Below, piece after piece: positions 54,504-62,817 of a stretch of DNA of 64,000 nt. The position numbers and the translations under genes are program-made. Source of the DNA: Christiangramia echinicola DSM 19838 (GTDB lineage: Bacteria > Bacteroidota > Bacteroidia > Flavobacteriales > Flavobacteriaceae); the NCBI RefSeq assembly GCF_000423065.1, contig NZ_AUHG01000012.1, positions 434,001-498,000 of the forward strand. Direction: 5' to 3'. The notes below the pieces were generated by a model. The model had not been told where the DNA came from and made no database searches. It saw nothing but the letters and a program-made list of their open reading frames with translations. How positions within the stretch are numbered: the first letter of the stretch is position 1; each line of letters starts with the position of its first letter.

Positions 54504-54917
54504 TTAATGCGGCAACTTATTACGGAAGATTCCATAGACAAACGTTCCTAACACTGCTGCCAGAAAAACCACGATCACAGAAACATATCCTGCACCAATT
54601 AAGGTGTAAATTGGTCCCGGGCAGGCACCGGCTAAAGCCCATCCAAGTCCGAATATAATTCCGCCAAACATATACCGGCTAAAACTTTTATCCTTTGGTA
54701 CAAACTGGATCTCCTCGCCGTTGAGATCTTTCATTTTTTTCCGCTTTATCAGCTGAATTCCAAGAACACCAATGACCAAAGCCGAACCGATAATTCCGTA
54801 CATATGAAAGGCCTGGAACTGGAACATCTCGTAGATCCTGAACCAGGAAGCTGCTTCAGACTTAAACATTACGATTCCGAAAAATATACCTATAACTAAA
54901 TATCCTATAAATCTCAT
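54504..54917 (-). CDS. YeeE/YedE-type (DUF6691) transporter subunit, half B
   Basis: 137 residues with four transmembrane helices. GWALAGACPGPIYTLIGAG holds the conserved Cys and Gly-Pro of the sulfur-compound transporters. A cytosolic loop (KRKKMKDLNGEEIQF) separates the helices. It follows the other half by 3 bp. In bacteria such paired DUF395 proteins move thiosulfate or related sulfur and often sit near sulfur dioxygenases. Confidence 0.9.
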   Translation of the reverse strand: MRFIGYLVIGIFFGIVMFKSEAASWFRIYEMFQFQAFHMYGIIGSALVIGVLGIQLIKRKKMKDLNGEEIQFVPKDKSFSRYMFGGIIFGLGWALAGACPGPIYTLIGAGYVSVIVVFLAAVLGTFVYGIFRNKLPH

Positions 54918-54920
54918 TTT

Positions 54921-55478
54921 CTAAAAAATTAGGGGAAATAATAAATGAACCATTACAAGGCCACCAATGAAAAATCCTACTACGGCAATAAGCGATGGTA
55001 ATTGTAAATTACTCAAGCCTGAGATCGCATGACCAGAAGTACATCCTCCAGCCCATCTCGCTCCAAAACCTATTAAAAAACCACCAATTATAAGGATGCT
55101 TAAAGCCTTCCAATCGGTAAGTGCTTCCAGGCTATATAGTTCGTCTGGAAGATAGGCTTCTCCTGAACTTTCAAATCCCAGACCCTGTAAAGTTGATACT
55201 GTTTCTGGATTTATCGCTACTGCAGGATCTGCCGTCAATAAATTCATGGCGATAAAACCACCTATAGCTGCACCAATAACAACTGTAAGATTCCATTTCT
55301 GGGCGCGCCAGTTAAAATCAAAAAAGCTTGCCTTACTATCTGCTCCACACATGGTGCAAAGCGTTCTTAGATTCGAGGACATCCCAAATTGTTTTCCCAT
55401 GAAAATGAGGAGAAACATTATTAAGGCTATTAAAGGCCCGGCAACATACCAGGGCCATGGTTGTAATATATATTCCAT
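54921..55478 (-). CDS. YeeE/YedE-type sulfur compound transporter, half A
   Basis: 185 residues with about five helices. The signature GARWAGGCTSGHAISGLSNL carries the functional Cys; a Cys pair TLCTMCGADSKASF lies in the first loop near residue 41-44. It imports thiosulfate or persulfidic sulfur by analogy with characterised YeeE proteins. It is the first gene of a two-gene operon and has a palindromic operator and a -7-like box upstream, shared with the persulfide dioxygenase operon at 62645. Confidence 0.92.
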   Translation of the reverse strand: MEYILQPWPWYVAGPLIALIMFLLIFMGKQFGMSSNLRTLCTMCGADSKASFFDFNWRAQKWNLTVVIGAAIGGFIAMNLLTADPAVAINPETVSTLQGLGFESSGEAYLPDELYSLEALTDWKALSILIIGGFLIGFGARWAGGCTSGHAISGLSNLQLPSLIAVVGFFIGGLVMVHLLFPLIF

Positions 55479-55497: not shown

Positions 55498-55505
55498 CAA
55501 AGGAA
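55498..55505 (-). promoter_or_regulatory. -7-like box of the YeeE operon
   Basis: On the minus strand TTCCTTTG, one mismatch from TAnnTTTG. Its G is 20 bp upstream of ATG 55478. Its distance to the centre of the GTAAC palindrome is 36.5 bp, the same as at 62665-62672. Confidence 0.5.
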
Positions 55506-55527
55506 CAATAAGGAGAGTGGGAATTCA

Positions 55528-55541
55528 GTAACAATAGTTAC
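55528..55541 (-). promoter_or_regulatory. GTAAC-N4-GTTAC operator of the YeeE operon
   Basis: GTAAC-AATA-GTTAC within CAGTAACAATAGTTACA. The centre is about 41.5 bp upstream of the predicted transcription start, the class II position for Crp/Fnr-type activators. A second copy with matching flanks and spacing is at 62695-62708. Confidence 0.7.
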
Positions 55542-55542
55542 A

Positions 55543-56448
55543 TTAATTCTCTTTACAGTAAGTTTGAATATTATCAAGCACCTTTTTTGAAAGCCTTTTT
55601 AAAGTTTGAGCTGACCATCCGGCGCTGGCATCCAATGCTATAACATTGCTAATTTCCAGGGTTTCCTTAGATAATTCTTTTTTCCCATCACCGTCAAAGA
55701 TCGCGAAATTACCTTCATTTCGTATCCATTTACTAAAGGCTTTTTCATCAAAAGGAAGACCTAGTGAAGTATTGATAAGTATCTTGCCATTTCCAAATTG
55801 AGAAATCTCCTTCTCTCCTATTGGTTGTGCATTCTTTGGAAGGTGAAAAGAAACTGCCTCACAGGTTTTTAGTAGATCCTTTAAATTGAGATATTTTACT
55901 CCTTTATCTTCCCAATCAGGTTTACGGGTATTGCTATAATAATAAAGGTCTGCACCAAATGGAAGCAAACACCTGGCAAGTAGCTTCCCCGTAACACCTA
56001 ACCCAATTATTCCAATTTTAAGGTCGGTTAGTTCCTGAGGCATTTCTTTCCATTGCATTCCTTTATAACCATTCAGCAATTGAATGAGTTCTGAAATAAT
56101 GAATTCTGCCACTCCAGGGTCACCGTAATCTTTAATTCCTTTTACGGTAATGCCATTTTCTCGAGCATATTTTACAGCTACATTCGCCGATTCATCATCG
56201 TAAAGACTACAGGCCATTCCGATATATTTTATCCTGGGACAAGCCTCGATGATCTCCTCATCTAATTCAGTATGCCATGATACTATCACGGCTTCAGCGT
56301 CACCGATGCGTTCAATGACCTCATCTTTAGATTCAGGATAATCTGTATATACCTTTACCTCAGCTTCACTTAGATCCTGTAATTCTGATATCGCAGTATC
56401 ATTCAGTTTGGTATTATCTACACAGACAATTTTATTGAATTGAATCAT
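55543..56448 (-). CDS. D-isomer 2-hydroxyacid dehydrogenase-like protein
   Basis: 301 residues from ATG 56448; ATG 56463 would add five. The NAD-binding motif GIIGLGVTGKLLARCL is clear near 150-165, with SFHLPKNAQPIGEKE and ILINTSLGLPFDE. The expected Arg-Glu-His set is not complete: the catalytic Arg region reads INTSLGLPF and the terminal His region is DASAGWSA. So the fold is certain, activity is doubtful. It sits next to the YeeE operon but has its own upstream region. Confidence 0.82.
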   Translation of the reverse strand: MIQFNKIVCVDNTKLNDTAISELQDLSEAEVKVYTDYPESKDEVIERIGDAEAVIVSWHTELDEEIIEACPRIKYIGMACSLYDDESANVAVKYARENGITVKGIKDYGDPGVAEFIISELIQLLNGYKGMQWKEMPQELTDLKIGIIGLGVTGKLLARCLLPFGADLYYYSNTRKPDWEDKGVKYLNLKDLLKTCEAVSFHLPKNAQPIGEKEISQFGNGKILINTSLGLPFDEKAFSKWIRNEGNFAIFDGDGKKELSKETLEISNVIALDASAGWSAQTLKRLSKKVLDNIQTYCKEN

Positions 56449-56505
56449 ATTTAAAGATTTCATATGCTGAAAATCAATTCAGCAAGACGAATTTAATTTA
56501 ATTGA

Positions 56506-56533
56506 AAAAGGCCGGAATAAATTCCGGCCTTTT
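56506..56533 (-). terminator. Terminator of the carboxylase operon
   Basis: AAAAGGCCGGAAT (56506-56518) pairs with ATTCCGGCCTTTT (56521-56533). On the minus strand the stem ends in a T-tract just after the carboxyltransferase stop. Confidence 0.9.
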
Positions 56534-56537
56534 AATT

Positions 56538-58079
56538 TTATAACGGAATATTTCCGTGTTTCCTGTTAGGTCGCAGAACATGTTTGTTCTCCAGCGCACT
56601 AAAAGCTTTTATTAATTTTCTTCGCGTATCCTTCGGCATGATAACCTCATCAATGAAACCACGTTGAGCAGCTTCAAACGGAGTGGCAAATTTTTCAGCA
56701 TATTCTGCTTCTTTTTCTGCCAGTTTCTTTTCAGGATCTGCTGCTTCAGCGATCTCTTTTCTGAAGATTATTTCTGAAGCTCCCTTAGCTCCCATCACTG
56801 CAATTTCAGCAGTTGGCCATGCATAATTAAGATCGGCGCCAATATGCTTGGAGTTCATTACGTCATAAGCTCCTCCATAGGCTTTTCTGGTGATCACCGT
56901 AACTTTCGGAACCGTTGCCTCACTTAATGCGTAAAGCAGCTTAGCACCGTGTAAAATGATCCCATTCCACTCCTGATCTGTCCCAGGAAGAAATCCAGGC
57001 ACATCTACAAGTACAAGAAGCGGAATATTAAAGCAGTCACAGAATCTGGTAAATCTTGCCGCTTTTTTAGAGGAATCCACATCAAGAACTCCGGCAAGAC
57101 TCATTGGTTGATTGGCGATCACTCCAACACTTCTTCCCCCAATTCTTGAAAAACCAACTATAATATTATCGGCGTAGTTCTTATGTACTTCAAAAAAAGA
57201 GTCCTCATCGATAATTCCTTTTATCACCTCATGCATGTCATAAGGCTTGTTAGAACTATCAGGTACTATATTCTCGAGAACTTCGCGGTGTTCGTCACCT
57301 AATTCAAAATCCAGTTTTTCCGGCGGAGTTTGATTATTCTGAGGCATATAGCTTATTAACTGCTTAATATTCTCTAAACAGATAATATCGTTGGCTGCAG
57401 TGAAATGCGTAACCCCAGACTTTGTTGAATGCGTACTTGCTCCCCCAAGCTCTTCTGAAGTTACATTTTCATTAGTCACCGTTTTAACCACATTTGGTCC
57501 GGTAACGAACATATAAGAAGTATCCTCTACCATCAGCGTAAAATCTGTCATGGCCGGAGAATACACTGCACCACCGGCACAAGGTCCCATAATTGCTGAA
57601 ATTTGAGGAATTACCCCCGAAGCTTTTACATTGCGATGAAAAATATCAGCGTAGCCACCAAGAGATTTTACACCCTCCTGGATACGGGCACCTCCTGAAT
57701 CATTCAGTCCTATCATTGGTGCTCCAACCTTAACGGCCATGTCCATGACTTTACAGATCTTTTCGGCATGGGTTTCTGAAAGTGATCCACCAAAAACGGT
57801 GAAATCCTGGGCGAAAACATAAACCAGTCTGCCATTAATAGTTCCATAACCGGTTATTACACCGTCTCCATAGAACTTTTGTTTTTCCATCCCGAAATCG
57901 GTCGTTCGGTGCGTTACCAGAATTCCTATTTCTTCAAATGAATTTTCATCCAACAGGTATTCTACACGCTCACGAGCAGTAAGTTTCTTCTTTTCATGCT
58001 GTTTGGCAATTCGTTTTTCGCCTCCACCTTTATGGGCTTCAGCGATCTTATCTTTTAATTTATCGAGGTTCTGACTCAT
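56538..58079 (-). CDS. Propionyl-CoA-carboxylase-type carboxyltransferase (beta) subunit
   Basis: 513 residues. N-terminal [19 protein letters not shown], then the carboxyltransferase N-half with [42 protein letters not shown], and [17 protein letters not shown]. The stretch [14 protein letters not shown] is typical for PccB rather than AccD. The C-half has [16 protein letters not shown]. It transfers CO2 from biotin to propionyl-CoA or a short acyl-CoA. It overlaps no gene; the biotin carboxylase is 16 bp upstream. Confidence 0.93.
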
Positions 58080-58095
58080 CTCTAAATTCTGAATT

Positions 58096-59538
58096 TTAGT
58101 TGTGTGGTAATCTTAGTTGCTCCTTATCTTTCATATACTGCTTCAATGCCATAAGGGCCGCCAGCTTTGCTTCTTCTTCGGTCTCTTCTTTCAATGCTTC
58201 CGGAGAATAATATTTCTTTACAAAGTGAGTGTCGAAATTTCCGCTTTTGAAAGCTTCATGCTGAAATACAAATTTTCCGAAAGGTAAAGTCGTACTTACG
58301 CCTTCTACGATATAATGATCTATAGCCTTGATCATCATCTGTATCGATTCTTCCCTGGTTTTTCCGTAAGTGATTAGTTTCGCTAACATAGGATCATAAT
58401 AGATAGGCACTTCCATACCTTCTTCAAATCCGTTATCCAGTCTGATTCCTTCACCAACCGGAATTGCATATTTTTCCAGGGTTCCGGTACTCGGCATAAA
58501 ATCTTCCAGTGGATCTTCAGCGTATACACGAAGTTCCATTGCGTGACCTTTGATCTTTAGATCTTCCTGAGAAAATTGAAGTTTCTCTCCTCTGGCTACC
58601 AAAATTTGTTGTTCCACAAGGTCAACTCCGGTGATATATTCGGTTACTGGATGCTCTACCTGAAGTCTGGTATTCATTTCCAGGAAATAGAAATTCCTGT
58701 TTTCATCAAATAAAAACTCAACCGTTCCTGCACCAACATAATCACATGCTTTAGCAACTTTAACTGCTGCTTCTCCCATTTCCTTTCTCAAGGCATCATC
58801 CAGAACAACAGATGGAGCCTCCTCCACTACTTTCTGGTGTCTACGTTGAATGCTACATTCTCTTTCGAATAAATGCACATAATTTCCATGAGTATCGGCC
58901 AGTACCTGGATCTCGATATGTCGCGGAGATGACACATATTTTTCAATGAACACAGATCCATCCCCAAAAGCAGATTCAGCTTCGCTAATTGCCCGCTTCA
59001 TCTGGTCTTCCAGTTCCTTTTCCTGCTCCACGACACGCATTCCTTTTCCCCCACCACCGGCAGAAGCTTTAATCAATATTGGGAACCCTATCTCCTTAGC
59101 TATTTTCTTTGCTTTTTCAGTATCGGTGATCGCTTCATCAATTCCGGGAACCATCGGGATATCATAAGCCTTCACCGCATCTTTGGCCGCAAGCTTACTT
59201 CCCATTACTTTTATAGCTTTAGACCCTGGACCAATCCAGGTAATTCCATTCTTTTCAACAGATTCAGCGAAACCGGCGTTTTCACTAAGGAAACCATAAC
59301 CGGGATGAATTCCGTCTACATTTAATTCTTTCGCTACCTCTATGATCTTATCGCCTTTAAGGTAAGATTCGCTGGACGGTGCCTCTCCTATACAAACAGC
59401 TTCATCTGCAAATTTCACGTGAGGGGCATTTCTATCGGCAGTAGAATAAACTGCTACCGTATCTATTCCCATACGTTTTACAGTTTTCATCACCCTTAAT
59501 GCGATCTCTCCTCTATTGGCTACTAATATTTTTTTCAT
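58096..59538 (-). CDS. Biotin carboxylase subunit of acyl-CoA carboxylase
   Basis: 480 residues. [19 protein letters not shown] start, [23 protein letters not shown]-grasp glycine loop [51 protein letters not shown] and [20 protein letters not shown] are all typical. It carboxylates biotin on the carrier protein using ATP and bicarbonate. A short interspersed repeat sits between this gene and the carrier-protein gene upstream. Confidence 0.95.
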
Positions 59539-59552
59539 ATTTCTTTTTTAAC

Positions 59553-59580
59553 AAGACCTCTCGACCAGGCTCGAGGTGAC
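59553..59580. repeat. Short interspersed repeat inside the carboxylase operon
   Basis: Minus strand CACCTCGAGCCTGGTCGAG (within this interval) followed by AGGTC. CTCGA/TCGAG can form a small hairpin. It shares the core GAGC-n-GTCGA with the repeat at 30115-30137. It lies in the 94 bp gap between the carrier and biotin carboxylase genes. Confidence 0.5.
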
Positions 59581-59632
59581 TTCTCATTAATTTGTTAATT
59601 CTAAATTCGTAATTCCAGATTCTGAACCCGAA

Positions 59633-60118
59633 TTATTCCATTTCTATTAATAGCTGATTCTTTTCTACCGTATCGCTTTTTGCAACAGTTACAGACTTTA
59701 CCACTCCATCGCGAGGAGCCGTTAAAGTATTTTCCATCTTCATCGCTTCCAGAACCAGTAAATAATCACCTTCTTTCACCTCATCACCTTCCTTAACATT
59801 CACTTCCAGAATAAGACCCGGCATTGGTGCTTTAATATCATTGACCTGCTGAGAAGTTCCTAAGGAAAGTCCCATATCCTCGATTAATTGATCCAGGTCA
59901 TTATTGATCTTAACTGAATAAATGTTAGAATTGATCTTAATCTCATAAGTTCTGTTTAGAAAATCAGATTTAAAGACCTCAGCCTTGTAAGACCTATTTT
60001 CCCTGAGTAAATGATAGTTTCTATCTGAAGTTTTCTGAGTATCCAGTGCCTTAATCTCCTCTTCTGAAAATTCATATTTCAGGGAGTTGTTCACTTTAAC
60101 CTTGTAGTTCTTATCCAT
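59633..60118 (-). CDS. Biotin carboxyl carrier protein of acyl-CoA carboxylase
   Basis: 161 residues. An N-terminal domain of about 90 residues precedes the biotinyl domain (~95-161), where the biotinylated lysine is Lys127 in EAMKMEN. Supporting motifs are APMPGLILEVNVKEGDEV and DGVVKSVTVAKSDTVEKNQLLIE. It is the first gene of the three-gene operon. A minus-strand TATATTTA about 41 bp upstream (60159-60166) might be a weak -7 box. Confidence 0.93.
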   Translation of the reverse strand: MDKNYKVKVNNSLKYEFSEEEIKALDTQKTSDRNYHLLRENRSYKAEVFKSDFLNRTYEIKINSNIYSVKINNDLDQLIEDMGLSLGTSQQVNDIKAPMPGLILEVNVKEGDEVKEGDYLLVLEAMKMENTLTAPRDGVVKSVTVAKSDTVEKNQLLIEME

Positions 60119-60339
60119 AAAAAGGTTTATGTATAGTTATTTTTTTGACGTCGGAGCGTAAATATAGAAAAATTAAGGTGTATCAACTGTTGAAGAAATC
60201 TCAAAATCCTCATAAATATCACTGTGATTTAGTGAAATGATTGGAGCAGTCACAATATACATATAGCTCTTGAAGTTGAGATCTTTTGCTTAACACGCGA
60301 TGACTTCAAAATGTTATATTCCTTCTTTCTAATACGACA

Positions 60340-60367
60340 TAAAAAAACCCGGAATAATATTCCGGGT
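60340..60367 (-). terminator. Terminator of the persulfide dioxygenase-rhodanese operon
   Basis: ACCCGGAATA (60347-60356) pairs with TATTCCGGGT (60358-60367). On the minus strand the stem is followed by seven T at 60341-60347, thirty bases past the gene's stop. The remainder of the gap 60119-60397 shows no gene. Confidence 0.9.
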
Positions 60368-60397
60368 CATTTGTAGGTAAACTTAAGTCGGGGAACT

Positions 60398-61735
60398 TTA
60401 CTTAAATTCCTTAATAGCTTCACTTAGATCATAAACCTTGGTATTCTCAAACTTATTATCCAGAATACTACTTCCGGCCGCAGATCTATATCCACCGGCA
60501 CAATGAACTACTACCGGTTTGTGAGAAGGAATCTCGGTAGCATTTTCCCTTAGTTCATTTAAAGGAACAGCGATGGCATCTTCAAAGATCTTTCCATCTG
60601 CTACTTCGCTATTATTCCTAATATCTACAATAGTATAATTCTCTTTATTATTTTTGAAATCTTCCAGGTCAAAGTCATCAGATTTTTTAGAAACTTCAGA
60701 TCCTAATGTAACCACAGCCTTAACCTGTTTCTCATACCCAATCTTCGCAGTTCTTTCTAATAGTTCTTCCAGATCATCAACACTGTTCAAAACCAGGTAA
60801 AACTGTTCCTCAGGCTTAATTATTGCTCCTAACCAGGTTTCGTATTTATCACCTTCAGAACGGGCCATGATATTAATACTGTTTGGAAGGTGTCCGGCTT
60901 TAAAAGCGTCTCCATCTCTAGTATCCACCACGGTAATTTCTTTTTCAACCTTGCCAACATTCAGCATAAGCTTGTTAGCCCATTTTGTACGCTGTACATT
61001 TTCAGGTCCGGTTTTATTAATATCTACATTAAACCCGAAGTAATGAGGAATAAAAGGCTGATCTTTTAAGATCTCTTCTACGAACTCATCCTCTGTTTGC
61101 TCTTTAAAGGCCCAGTTTCCCTGGCGTTCGTTTCCAAGTGTGCTTGAAGAAGCGTCACTCATATTCTTACCACACAATGATCCAGCACCATGTGCAGGAT
61201 ATACTAATGCATCATCTGGCAGATCTGTGAACTTATTTTTTATGGTATCATACATTTGTTTGGCAAGATCTATTCTCTTCGCCTTCATGTTTCCAGCTTT
61301 TTCACGAAGATCTGGTCTTCCAACATTTCCAATAAAAAGGGTGTCTCCTGTAAACAAGGCCGTTTCTTCTCCGTCTTTGGCCACAATCGTAATACTATCT
61401 GGAGAATGCCCAGGAGTATTTATAGCTTTAAATTCTACCGCTCCCATCTTCAAAGAATCTCCATCATCAAAAGACTTATGCGGATAATCTGCTCCTACCA
61501 TTTCACTAGCATAGATAGTTGCTCCGGCTTCTTCATGAATCTGCAAATGACTACTTACAAAATCTGCATGAGGATGCGTTTCAAATACCGCAACGATCTT
61601 AGCATTCTGTTCTTCAGCATATCTATAATAGTCCATAGGATTTCTCGAAGGATCTACTAAGGCCATTTTTCCGTCGCTAACAATAGCATATGAATAATGT
61701 GCAAGCGGACTATCTTTGAATTGTTTTATAGTCAT
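60398..61735 (-). CDS. MBL-fold persulfide dioxygenase-like protein with two rhodanese domains
   Basis: 445 residues. The metallo-beta-lactamase domain (~1-235) has FETHPHADFVSSH, NTPGHSPDSI, FTGDTLFIGNVGRPDL and VYPAHGAGSLCGKNM, the ETHE1-like iron site. Two rhodanese domains follow: the first (~265-350) has VVDTRDGDAFKAGHLPNSINI but no active-site Cys (FYLVLNSVDD in its place); the second (~365-445) has VVHCAGGYRSAAG with the active Cys. Such proteins oxidise glutathione or coenzyme persulfide to sulfite and move sulfane sulfur. It is cotranscribed with the sterol desaturase gene 13 bp upstream. Confidence 0.93.
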   Translation of the reverse strand: MTIKQFKDSPLAHYSYAIVSDGKMALVDPSRNPMDYYRYAEEQNAKIVAVFETHPHADFVSSHLQIHEEAGATIYASEMVGADYPHKSFDDGDSLKMGAVEFKAINTPGHSPDSITIVAKDGEETALFTGDTLFIGNVGRPDLREKAGNMKAKRIDLAKQMYDTIKNKFTDLPDDALVYPAHGAGSLCGKNMSDASSSTLGNERQGNWAFKEQTEDEFVEEILKDQPFIPHYFGFNVDINKTGPENVQRTKWANKLMLNVGKVEKEITVVDTRDGDAFKAGHLPNSINIMARSEGDKYETWLGAIIKPEEQFYLVLNSVDDLEELLERTAKIGYEKQVKAVVTLGSEVSKKSDDFDLEDFKNNKENYTIVDIRNNSEVADGKIFEDAIAVPLNELRENATEIPSHKPVVVHCAGGYRSAAGSSILDNKFENTKVYDLSEAIKEFK

Positions 61736-61748
61736 ATTATTATGATTT

Positions 61749-62645
61749 TTAAATGTTATTCGATTTTACTTTCTCTTTTCTTCGGAAAGGAAACAGGGTT
61801 TGATTTCCAAAATCTTCAGGGAAATCTTCATCTCCACTGAAACCTAATTCTATTTTCTTACCGTTTTCAGGCACATAGGCAGTTCCAAAAATATAATCCC
61901 AGAGACTTAGACTCAGTCCGAAATTCATTCCGTAAGGCCGGTCTTCCGGTAACTCTTTTGAGTGATGCCAGATGTGCATTTTAGGGTTATTAAAAATATA
62001 TCCCAGGAGACCGTAGTTCCAACCAACATTTGCATGATTTAAATGTCCTACGAACACAGCAAACATATGAACTAAAAAAAACTCTTTTATCCCGAACCCG
62101 ATCATTGCTAAGGGAATATACTGCACCGTTTTATAAATAATAGTTTCCATAAAATGAAACCTGAATTGAGCAGCAAACCCCATTTCTTTCACGCTATGAT
62201 GTATCTTATGAAACTCCCATAGACTTGCTCTCTTATGTAATTGTCTATGTACATTCCATTGTATGAAATCTGCCAGCACAAACATGATCAATAACTGGCT
62301 CCATGCAGGAAGATTCCCTAACTCTATGGCAACTATATTCTCTATCCCGAAAAGCCGTAAAAAGTCATATAATAACTCTACAGCCACGTTACTCAAAGCA
62401 TTATAGACAATTAATGAAAACAGGAAAAAATTGAAAACTATATAAAAGCTATCCAGCCAGAAACCTTTACGAAAAACTTTCTGATCTTTTCTCCATGGAA
62501 TAACGATCTCCAGGATCCATACCAACAGCGACAATCCAATAAGCCAATAGAAATAACTCGTCCATGTTGGATGGGTTATTTCGTTTACGAGATAATTAAA
62601 ATATCCCGTAAATGAATTCTGGATTATATCAATATACTTTTCCAA
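61749..62645 (-). CDS. Sterol desaturase/fatty acid hydroxylase family membrane protein
   Basis: 298 residues starting at TTG 62645: the upstream frame is closed by a TAA two codons before, and no ATG follows in the N-terminal region. Histidine clusters of the di-iron membrane enzymes are present: HRQLHKR, WEFHKIHHSVKEM, HLNHANVGWNYG and MHIWHHSKELP. It has four to five membrane helices. Substrate is unknown; hydroxylation of a membrane lipid or hopanoid is possible. Placement in an operon with the persulfide enzyme under a shared operator is notable. Confidence 0.9.
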   Translation of the reverse strand: MEKYIDIIQNSFTGYFNYLVNEITHPTWTSYFYWLIGLSLLVWILEIVIPWRKDQKVFRKGFWLDSFYIVFNFFLFSLIVYNALSNVAVELLYDFLRLFGIENIVAIELGNLPAWSQLLIMFVLADFIQWNVHRQLHKRASLWEFHKIHHSVKEMGFAAQFRFHFMETIIYKTVQYIPLAMIGFGIKEFFLVHMFAVFVGHLNHANVGWNYGLLGYIFNNPKMHIWHHSKELPEDRPYGMNFGLSLSLWDYIFGTAYVPENGKKIELGFSGDEDFPEDFGNQTLFPFRRKEKVKSNNI

Positions 62646-62664
62646 GCGTTTTTAAATTCTGGAA

Positions 62665-62672
62665 CAAAAATA
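62665..62672 (-). promoter_or_regulatory. -7 box of the sterol desaturase/rhodanese operon
   Basis: On the minus strand TATTTTTG, an exact TAnnTTTG match, 20 bp upstream of TTG 62645. The predicted transcription start is near 62660 with a leader of about 15 nt. Confidence 0.55.
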
Positions 62673-62694
62673 TAAATATCGAGGCGCTAAGGCA

Positions 62695-62708
62695 GTAACT
62701 TTTGTTAC
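62695..62708 (-). promoter_or_regulatory. GTAAC-N4-GTTAC operator of the sterol desaturase/rhodanese operon
   Basis: GTAAC-TTTT-GTTAC within CAGTAACTTTTGTTACA; flanks and distance to the -7 box match those of the copy at 55528-55541. The centre is about -41.5. The divergent aldo/keto reductase starts 110 bp away and may or may not be influenced. Confidence 0.7.
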
Positions 62709-62817
62709 AGAAATACTTAAAATGTATTAACACCCGAAAACCTTTTCTGTTAGAGTTGGTTAAATGCATTTCTAAAACAAGTTGTTCTCTTTAAATTTAG
62801 GTATTAAAATTTAAGTT

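Follow-up and report, generated by a model that had tools for sequence, protein, structure and literature searches.

Which regulator reads the two matched palindromes in a 64,000-nucleotide stretch of the Christiangramia echinicola genome (C3:434001-498000, here called the window), and what does it control? A sequence-only reading of this DNA had proposed that they are the operators of a two-operon sulfur regulon, in which one palindrome drives YeeE/YedE sulfur transporters and the other a sterol desaturase together with a fusion of metallo-beta-lactamase (MBL) and rhodanese domains, both activated by one Crp/Fnr-family protein encoded elsewhere. The analysis presented here makes it probable that the palindromes are operators of a regulon for sulfide and persulfide detoxification, controlled by a single Crp/Fnr-family dimer.

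The palindromes and their flanks have the form CAGTAAC-N4-GTTACA, exactly as claimed, at 55526-55542 and 62693-62709, and the whole window holds no third exact copy. When up to two mismatches are allowed, there are four matches in the window, one of them the second site read in reverse, compared with 0.78 expected from shuffling. Both palindromes face minus-strand genes (Table 1), and at both sites the distance from the palindrome centre to the last G of the -7-like box is 36.5 bp, as had been stated, while the start codon, claimed to lie about 56 bp away, is 56.5 bp from the centre (ATG at 55478 and TTG at 62645). Domain matches of the Pfam type bear out the proposed contents of the two operons. 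Going by its domain make-up, the MBL-rhodanese fusion is probably of the persulfide-dioxygenase type; with the NCBIfam Blh model it scores 46.8 bits, far below the cut-off of 625.

The same arrangement recurs throughout the Flavobacteriaceae. In the neighbourhoods of 60 orthologues of the Crp/Fnr gene described below, each of about 19.5 kb and together 1.17 Mb, GTAAC-N4-GTTAC occurs 164 times. Among palindromes made of a pentamer, four free bases and the reverse complement of the pentamer, this is the commonest when masked runs of N are put aside; TTTTT comes second with 64 copies, and the 59 other pentamers with the base composition of GTAAC have 1.1 copies on average. When the spacer is varied between 0 and 11, N4 gives the 164 sites and any other length at most 4. 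A chance origin of the sites is ruled out by the rank of the pentamer, by this spacer scan and by the genomes that lack the Crp gene. An exact TAnnTTTG box with its G at 36.5 bp from the centre is found at 73 of the 164 sites (background 0.04% per position), and a box with at most one mismatch at 145 (background about 1%). The profile of these 145 sites reads TnTGTAACnnnnGTTACTG, about 20 unconserved bases and TAnnTTTG. It contains no strong -33 element, and its only preferences downstream of the palindrome are for T (57%) near -34 and G (54%) near -33. In a second set of 80 loci, not independent of the first since several genomes are in both, there are 207 sites, 95 with an exact box and 183 with at most one mismatch. 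At the level of sequence these counts establish that the site, TGTAAC-N4-GTTAC, keeps a constant distance of 36.5 bp to the -7 box in promoters of the sigma-A type.

The spacing bears directly on how the bound protein would act. Class II activators of the Crp/Fnr family have their binding site near -41.5. In Flavobacterium psychrophilum, where transcription starts have been mapped, TAnnTTTG spans -12 to -5 (PMC9723704; here and below, papers are cited from excerpts), and from this box position and the 36.5-bp spacing it follows that the site is centred at -41.5, close to the -41 that the sequence-only reading had anticipated. With start positions taken over from F. psychrophilum, the promoters thus have the constant spacing and the centre of a class II activator promoter. 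A protein bound to these sites could instead be a repressor, released on persulfidation in the manner of BigR and SqrR, and BigR does repress its operon and leave the DNA upon sulfide treatment (PMC5823870). A repressor would, however, have no need of the constant spacing to the -7 box, in class II geometry, that most of the 164 sites keep, so that repression fits less well and is an unlikely account.

When the whole genome is searched (3.51 Mb, 99.85% complete), the motif turns out to be rare: there are eight exact GTAAC-N4-GTTAC sites. A backward control motif has seven copies, so that the presence of the motif is unremarkable and what deserves attention is its position. Four of the eight sites fall within 16.6 kb, namely the two in the window and those at C3:498261 and C3:506083 (p about 3e-5, an upper bound computed after two of them had already been seen), and six of the eight stand in promoter-like positions, mainly next to sulfur genes. 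The other two, in a topoisomerase-type gene (L001) and in dnaJ (L006; both names read from translations), lie inside coding sequence with no box at 36.5 bp and were set aside as chance occurrences. A scan with the full 45-bp promoter, allowing up to three mismatches, gives 25 matches against 15 for a backward control, numbers that are not split by mismatch. Only five matches in the whole genome have zero or one mismatch, and the genes behind them are the FA-hydroxylase/MBL-rhodanese operon, TauE, YeeE/YedE, a second MBL-rhodanese gene and an SQR-like flavoprotein. With two mismatches there are two more, one at C3:498260 and one at C5:186017, before an operon of a small open reading frame, DoxX and a DsrE-like gene (the DsrE label being a reading of the sequence, to which family scans gave no match); the remaining 18 all have three. 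The regulon comprises at least five or six operons in this genome, and its proposed extent of two was too small.

The idea of one Crp/Fnr activator for both window operons was otherwise well placed: site, spacing and sulfur targets all agree with it, and so does the outcome of a search for a Crp/Fnr gene associated with the same site. Such a gene exists, and the site, followed by TauE, lies 8 bp behind its stop codon; "elsewhere" proves to be 9.4 kb beyond the second palindrome. The genes cydAB, for a bd-type quinol oxidase (read from sequence), lie about 520 bp beyond TauE. No exact site precedes the Crp/Fnr gene itself in C. echinicola; in relatives the Crp gene is preceded by one in 10 of 137 cases.

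The encoded protein has 210 residues and belongs to the Crp/Fnr superfamily, since its matches to PF00027 (cNMP-binding, 39.2 bits) and PF13545 (Crp HTH, 32.6 bits) both exceed the cut-offs, and Foldseek gives matches to structures of CAP, NtcA and FNR. By score it qualifies neither as a cAMP-CRP equivalog (PRK11753, 48.9 bits against a cut-off of 266) nor as an NtcA equivalog (44.8 against 244.95). FNR uses four cysteines, three of them N-terminal, to hold a 4Fe-4S cluster; the present protein has only three cysteines in all, at positions 77, 83 and 84, and does not qualify as an FNR. Its recognition helix reads SRVVVSR.

Two further proteins of the genome (L009 and L010, the latter with helix STRAVVNRHL) also score above the HTH_Crp_2 cut-off, and one of these paralogues might be the true reader of the sites. 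None of the eight exact sites adjoins either gene, as judged by comparing positions. Exact sites are found around orthologues of the gene near the window in 57 of the 60 loci, a comparison that covered the loci of this gene's orthologues, and the promoter is present in none of the 24 genomes without such an orthologue. It is therefore very improbable that a paralogue binds them.

The last figure comes from a sample of 299 family genomes, of which 275 have a match to the Crp protein (E at most 1e-20). In the full sample, 216 genomes contain the exact 44-bp promoter and 3 a backward control, and all 216 are among the 275 with a Crp match (p about 3e-15, uncorrected for kinship). The 24 Crp-less genomes, 20 taken from a listing and four obtained by subtraction, give a weakened contrast, since 16 of them are small (2.2 Mb or less); the other eight are of 2.6 Mb or more. 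In six genera with one genome of each kind (g21, g44, g47, g79, g98 and g113), the promoter is present in five of the six genomes with Crp and in none of the six without. Where the best match is weak (E from 1e-30 to 4e-50; 17 genomes, counted by eye), the promoter is present in 3 and absent in 14, which suggests that those matches are probably paralogues.

What the promoters control in relatives can be seen from 137 first downstream genes, drawn from Crp neighbourhoods and hence biased towards these. The commonest are MBL-rhodanese (41), TauE (33), SQR-like (11), YeeE (10) and Crp itself (10), followed by outer-membrane efflux proteins (8), cytochrome c-like proteins (5), peroxiredoxin (5) and cydA (3), and by FA-hydroxylase, SulP and DUF983-like proteins (2 each) and five singletons; clusters without a family scan were named from reading of the sequence. 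Among the singletons are a cytochrome of the SoxA/TsdA type and a sulfite dehydrogenase resembling SorA/SorT, which at 235.9 bits stays under its cut-off of 600. The representative of the SQR-like targets reaches 225.5 bits, where the cut-off is 525. Like the known persulfide sensors, the Crp/Fnr protein would thus have a sulfide-oxidation regulon, as far as the promoter pattern tells. Site, spacing, gene content and co-occurrence with Crp are all documented in the genomes as sequence patterns.

The consensus alone would also suit a different regulon. The published operator consensus of HcpR2, a Crp/Fnr protein that regulates hcp, is GTAACnnnnGTTAC, identical to the one found here (PMC1274295), and the palindromes might accordingly be HcpR-type operators of a nitrosative-stress regulon. 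HcpR proteins are further marked by a response to NO that depends on heme. The genome has no gene for a hybrid-cluster protein (TIGR01703, a model that matched 5 of 14 control genomes), and HcpR identity is rejected on this ground in spite of the shared consensus. The targets are mainly sulfur genes, and HcpR2 is described in the same source with Pro at position 181, against the helix SRVVVSR here (residue placed by eye). We regard an HcpR regulon as highly improbable.

To cover targets more distant from the Crp gene, 40 exact promoters that seemed remote from it were chosen by eye among the matches listed. Of the eligible ones, G254, G138 and one of G251 were passed over, while G230 contributed three that were taken out of turn; L221, L232 and L246 in fact lie within 20 kb of Crp, and for seven genomes the place of Crp is unlisted. 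Behind 39 of the 40 there is an open reading frame of 70 or more residues. Seventeen of the 39 (L220-L251) encode outer-membrane efflux proteins, the commonest target away from Crp, three encode rhodanese domains, and the others include MBL, TauE, YeeE, SulP, FA-hydroxylase, peroxiredoxin, thioredoxin and OsmC proteins. In all five efflux loci examined the next gene is HlyD-type adaptor-like, as read from sequence.

The signal to which the regulator would respond is suggested by its cysteines, which lie within GDTCAMTLNCCMG. Among 61 orthologues there is no variation at C77 or C83, and C84 is kept in 98%; all three are invariant in a set of 33 orthologues; in 19 more distant homologues, counted by eye, C77 is present in 19, C83 in 18 and C84 in 17. 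The protein thus has a conserved cysteine pair, as persulfide sensors do; in sensors of this class, persulfidation also alters DNA binding. An AlphaFold model of the orthologue from C. gaetbulicola has a mean predicted local distance difference test (pLDDT) of 85.7 and a predicted template modelling score of 0.63, and its least certain stretch is residues 71-90 (pLDDT 69 for 71-80 and 60 for 81-90).

From these properties the following cycle can be envisaged. The Crp/Fnr protein would bind TGTAAC-N4-GTTAC through its helix SRVVVSR and, as a class II activator, would substitute for a strong -33 element. Persulfide derived from sulfide may then modify C77 and C83, and perhaps C84, in a loop that would be equivalent to the loop of CRP that holds the cyclic nucleotide, and this modification may switch the protein to its DNA-binding form; these latter steps are less certain than the former. 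The expected output is a rise in the oxidation of sulfide, the dioxygenation of persulfide, the export of sulfite and the transport of sulfur that would last for as long as persulfide is present. Activation by the protein and its sensing of persulfide are both inferences.

The same regulon and the same activator could also respond to another signal: general thiol or disulfide stress, sulfite or thiosulfate, or a small ligand that occupies the cyclic-nucleotide pocket. In relatives the promoter also stands before genes for peroxiredoxin, thioredoxin, OsmC and outer-membrane efflux proteins, and the stretch with C77-C84 is the least certain of the model, which might be so for a flexible loop that binds a ligand. 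The commonest targets near Crp, on the other hand, are MBL-rhodanese, TauE, SQR-like and YeeE genes, and such genes are under persulfide control in Acinetobacter (PMC7315123). Such a signal is a serious possibility, though it seems to us the lesser one.

Several observations weigh against a persulfide-responsive regulon built on these sites. The occurrence of the promoter before peroxiredoxin, thioredoxin and efflux genes means that a broader thiol signal is possible, and one homologue (L199) lacks C83 and C84 though it stands beside yeeE. In the window, the box of the YeeE operon is imperfect, with a T at a position that is A in 92% of sites. The exact site is absent from 3 of the 60 Crp loci (L047, L095 and L098) and from 5 of the 80, and L047 retains crp-tauE-cydAB without it; the exact full promoter is likewise absent from 59 of the 275 genomes with a Crp match. 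The SQR-like protein of C. echinicola is a weak match to SQR, with 110 bits where the cut-off is 525, and only 22-30% identical to the matched SQR-like genes of relatives.

Variation of the recognition helix among distant homologues may go along with presence of the site. With SRVV, 6 of 12 have the site, and with SRE 0 of 7 (p 0.04), a co-variation that is only suggestive, since the loci are merely 3.6 kb long. Seven distant homologues (L204, L206, L209, L210, L211, L213 and L214) have C77 and C83 and carry SREx in place of SRVV; GTAAC-N4-GTTAC is absent from their 3.6-kb loci, and they are likely to have a different operator. A more distant copy of Crp (64-66% identity) occurs at L147, L162 and L176 in a cassette of MBL-rhodanese, yeeE1, yeeE2 and crp, followed at L176 by a site with small open reading frame, DoxX and DsrE-like genes. 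This looks like a transferable sulfide-defence cassette; a second Crp copy within one genome is documented only for C. oceanisediminis (L106, L147).

The site at C3:498261, 261 bp past the window end, has no open reading frame in front of it and is kept in all four genomes of the Christiangramia group. The small membrane protein beside it was discarded as a target, since no box faces it in any of the four. On the side away from this gene, two of these genomes have an exact TACTTTTG at the 36.5-bp distance, and in C. echinicola and L107 the box has two mismatches. Beyond the box come about 100 bases that end in a hairpin, with T-rich sequence behind it in three of the four. The element may be a small RNA that belongs to the regulon, or no more than the terminator of a convergent nitroreductase gene.

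Of the genes in the window, the FA_hydroxylase/sterol-desaturase-type gene heads the MBL-rhodanese operon, and the same promoter precedes it in other genera (L051, L215). Between the two operons (56538-60118) lie acyl-CoA carboxylase genes for carboxyltransferase, biotin carboxylase and biotin carrier, judged from sequence, before which the window scan found no exact regulon site.

Table 1. Operators, promoter boxes and genes of the proposed regulon; positions without a prefix refer to the window.
Feature	Position	Strand	Remarks
Operator 1	55528..55541	-	GTAACTATTGTTAC on transcribed (minus) strand; centre 36.5 bp upstream of -7 box G
-7-like box of operator 1	55498..55505	-	TTCCTTTG, one mismatch to TAnnTTTG
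YeeE/YedE-type sulfur transporter, first half	54921..55478	-	Sulf_transp PF04143
YeeE/YedE-type sulfur transporter, second half	54504..54917	-	DUF6691 / Sulf_transp
Operator 2	62695..62708	-	GTAACAAAAGTTAC on transcribed (minus) strand; centre 36.5 bp upstream of -7 box G
-7 box of operator 2	62665..62672	-	TATTTTTG, exact TAnnTTTG
Membrane FA_hydroxylase / sterol-desaturase-type protein	61749..62645	-	PF04116, TTG start
MBL-rhodanese fusion	60398..61735	-	Lactamase_B and two rhodanese stretches
C3:498261 region	C3:498261 onward (L015:1262-1400)		Counterparts L046:543, L106:19368, L107:18607
Site before TauE/SafE	C3:506083		Exact box TACTTTTG at 36.5 bp; between Crp/Fnr gene end and TauE/SafE
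Crp/Fnr gene	C3:506105-506737 (L015:9106-9738)	-	About 8.1 kb beyond window end
Second MBL-rhodanese promoter	C2:885125		0-1 mismatch; gene came to light only through 45-bp scan
SQR-like flavoprotein promoter	C5:214020		0-1 mismatch to 45-bp promoter

With one regulator, a fixed promoter grammar and a match in 275 of 299 family genomes, the regulon can be predicted from sequence alone. A sample of 296 genomes from the phylum includes 113 with relatives of the Crp/Fnr protein at E 1e-30 or better. It seems to us an evenly balanced question whether this widespread subfamily, with C-x5-CC in the ligand loop and the SRVV helix, is a previously undescribed class of persulfide-sensing activators that drives a dispersed -41.5 regulon in the Flavobacteriaceae. 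Such a regulon would include genes for SQR-like proteins, persulfide dioxygenase, the transporters TauE and YeeE/YedE, dehydrogenases for sulfite and for thiosulfate, bd oxidase and outer-membrane efflux. The Crp/Fnr family would be offered a new sensing chemistry that can be tested, and the promoters would form a large natural class II set for this phylum's type of sigma-A. By strict word matching in the open-access literature, judged from the papers listed and the openings of their abstracts, we found neither a Crp/Fnr regulator of a sulfide or persulfide regulon nor an account of sulfide or persulfide control in Flavobacteriaceae; in the searchable part of the review PMC9774590, the term "Fnr" is absent and "Crp" stands solely in two reference titles.

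How does the proposed system compare with known ones? Among solved structures the best match by sequence (1.8e-15) and by fold is PDB 3dv8, a Crp/Fnr protein of Eubacterium rectale, with a C-x5-C aligned at the same place as here; its identity by Foldseek is 23%, and its template modelling scores are only about 0.5 over both domains. NtcA, the cyanobacterial nitrogen regulator, is also among the closest solved relatives by sequence, and its recognition helix is similar, with STRVTVTR against SRVVVSR here; its targets differ from those of the present regulon. The nearest precedent that we found for a Crp reacting with persulfide is A1S_1182 of Acinetobacter baumannii, a Crp-like protein reported to be highly persulfidated in sulfide-treated cells, with an effect stated there as unknown; it is about 50% identical to E. 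coli Crp and, in the excerpts of that paper, is not linked to detoxification operons (PMC7315123).

In gene content, the likeness is to two other regulators. BigR controls Blh and a TauE-related transporter in Xylella and Agrobacterium (PMC5823870), and in A. baumannii it controls yeeE-yedE-pdo2, while FisR controls PDO-SQR-TauE and CydAB is raised under sulfide (PMC7315123). The operons of BigR, and of the related SqrR, join a sulfur dioxygenase to a sulfurtransferase and include a TauE-related exporter and a YeeE/YedE pair, as the genes here do, and BigR has two regulatory cysteines, as the present Crp/Fnr protein would have (PMC5823870, PMC7315123). BigR is, however, an ArsR-family repressor, whereas the protein described here is of the Crp/Fnr family and would act from an activator position. 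The activated PDO-SQR-TauE operon of the FisR regulon, together with the raised CydAB, likewise resembles the present set (PMC7315123), but FisR is a sigma-54 activator, in contrast to the -7 boxes of sigma-A type and the Crp/Fnr dimer proposed here. The two palindromes would thus belong to a known kind of regulon, that for sulfide detoxification, placed under a Crp/Fnr regulator instead of one of the sigma-54 or ArsR type.

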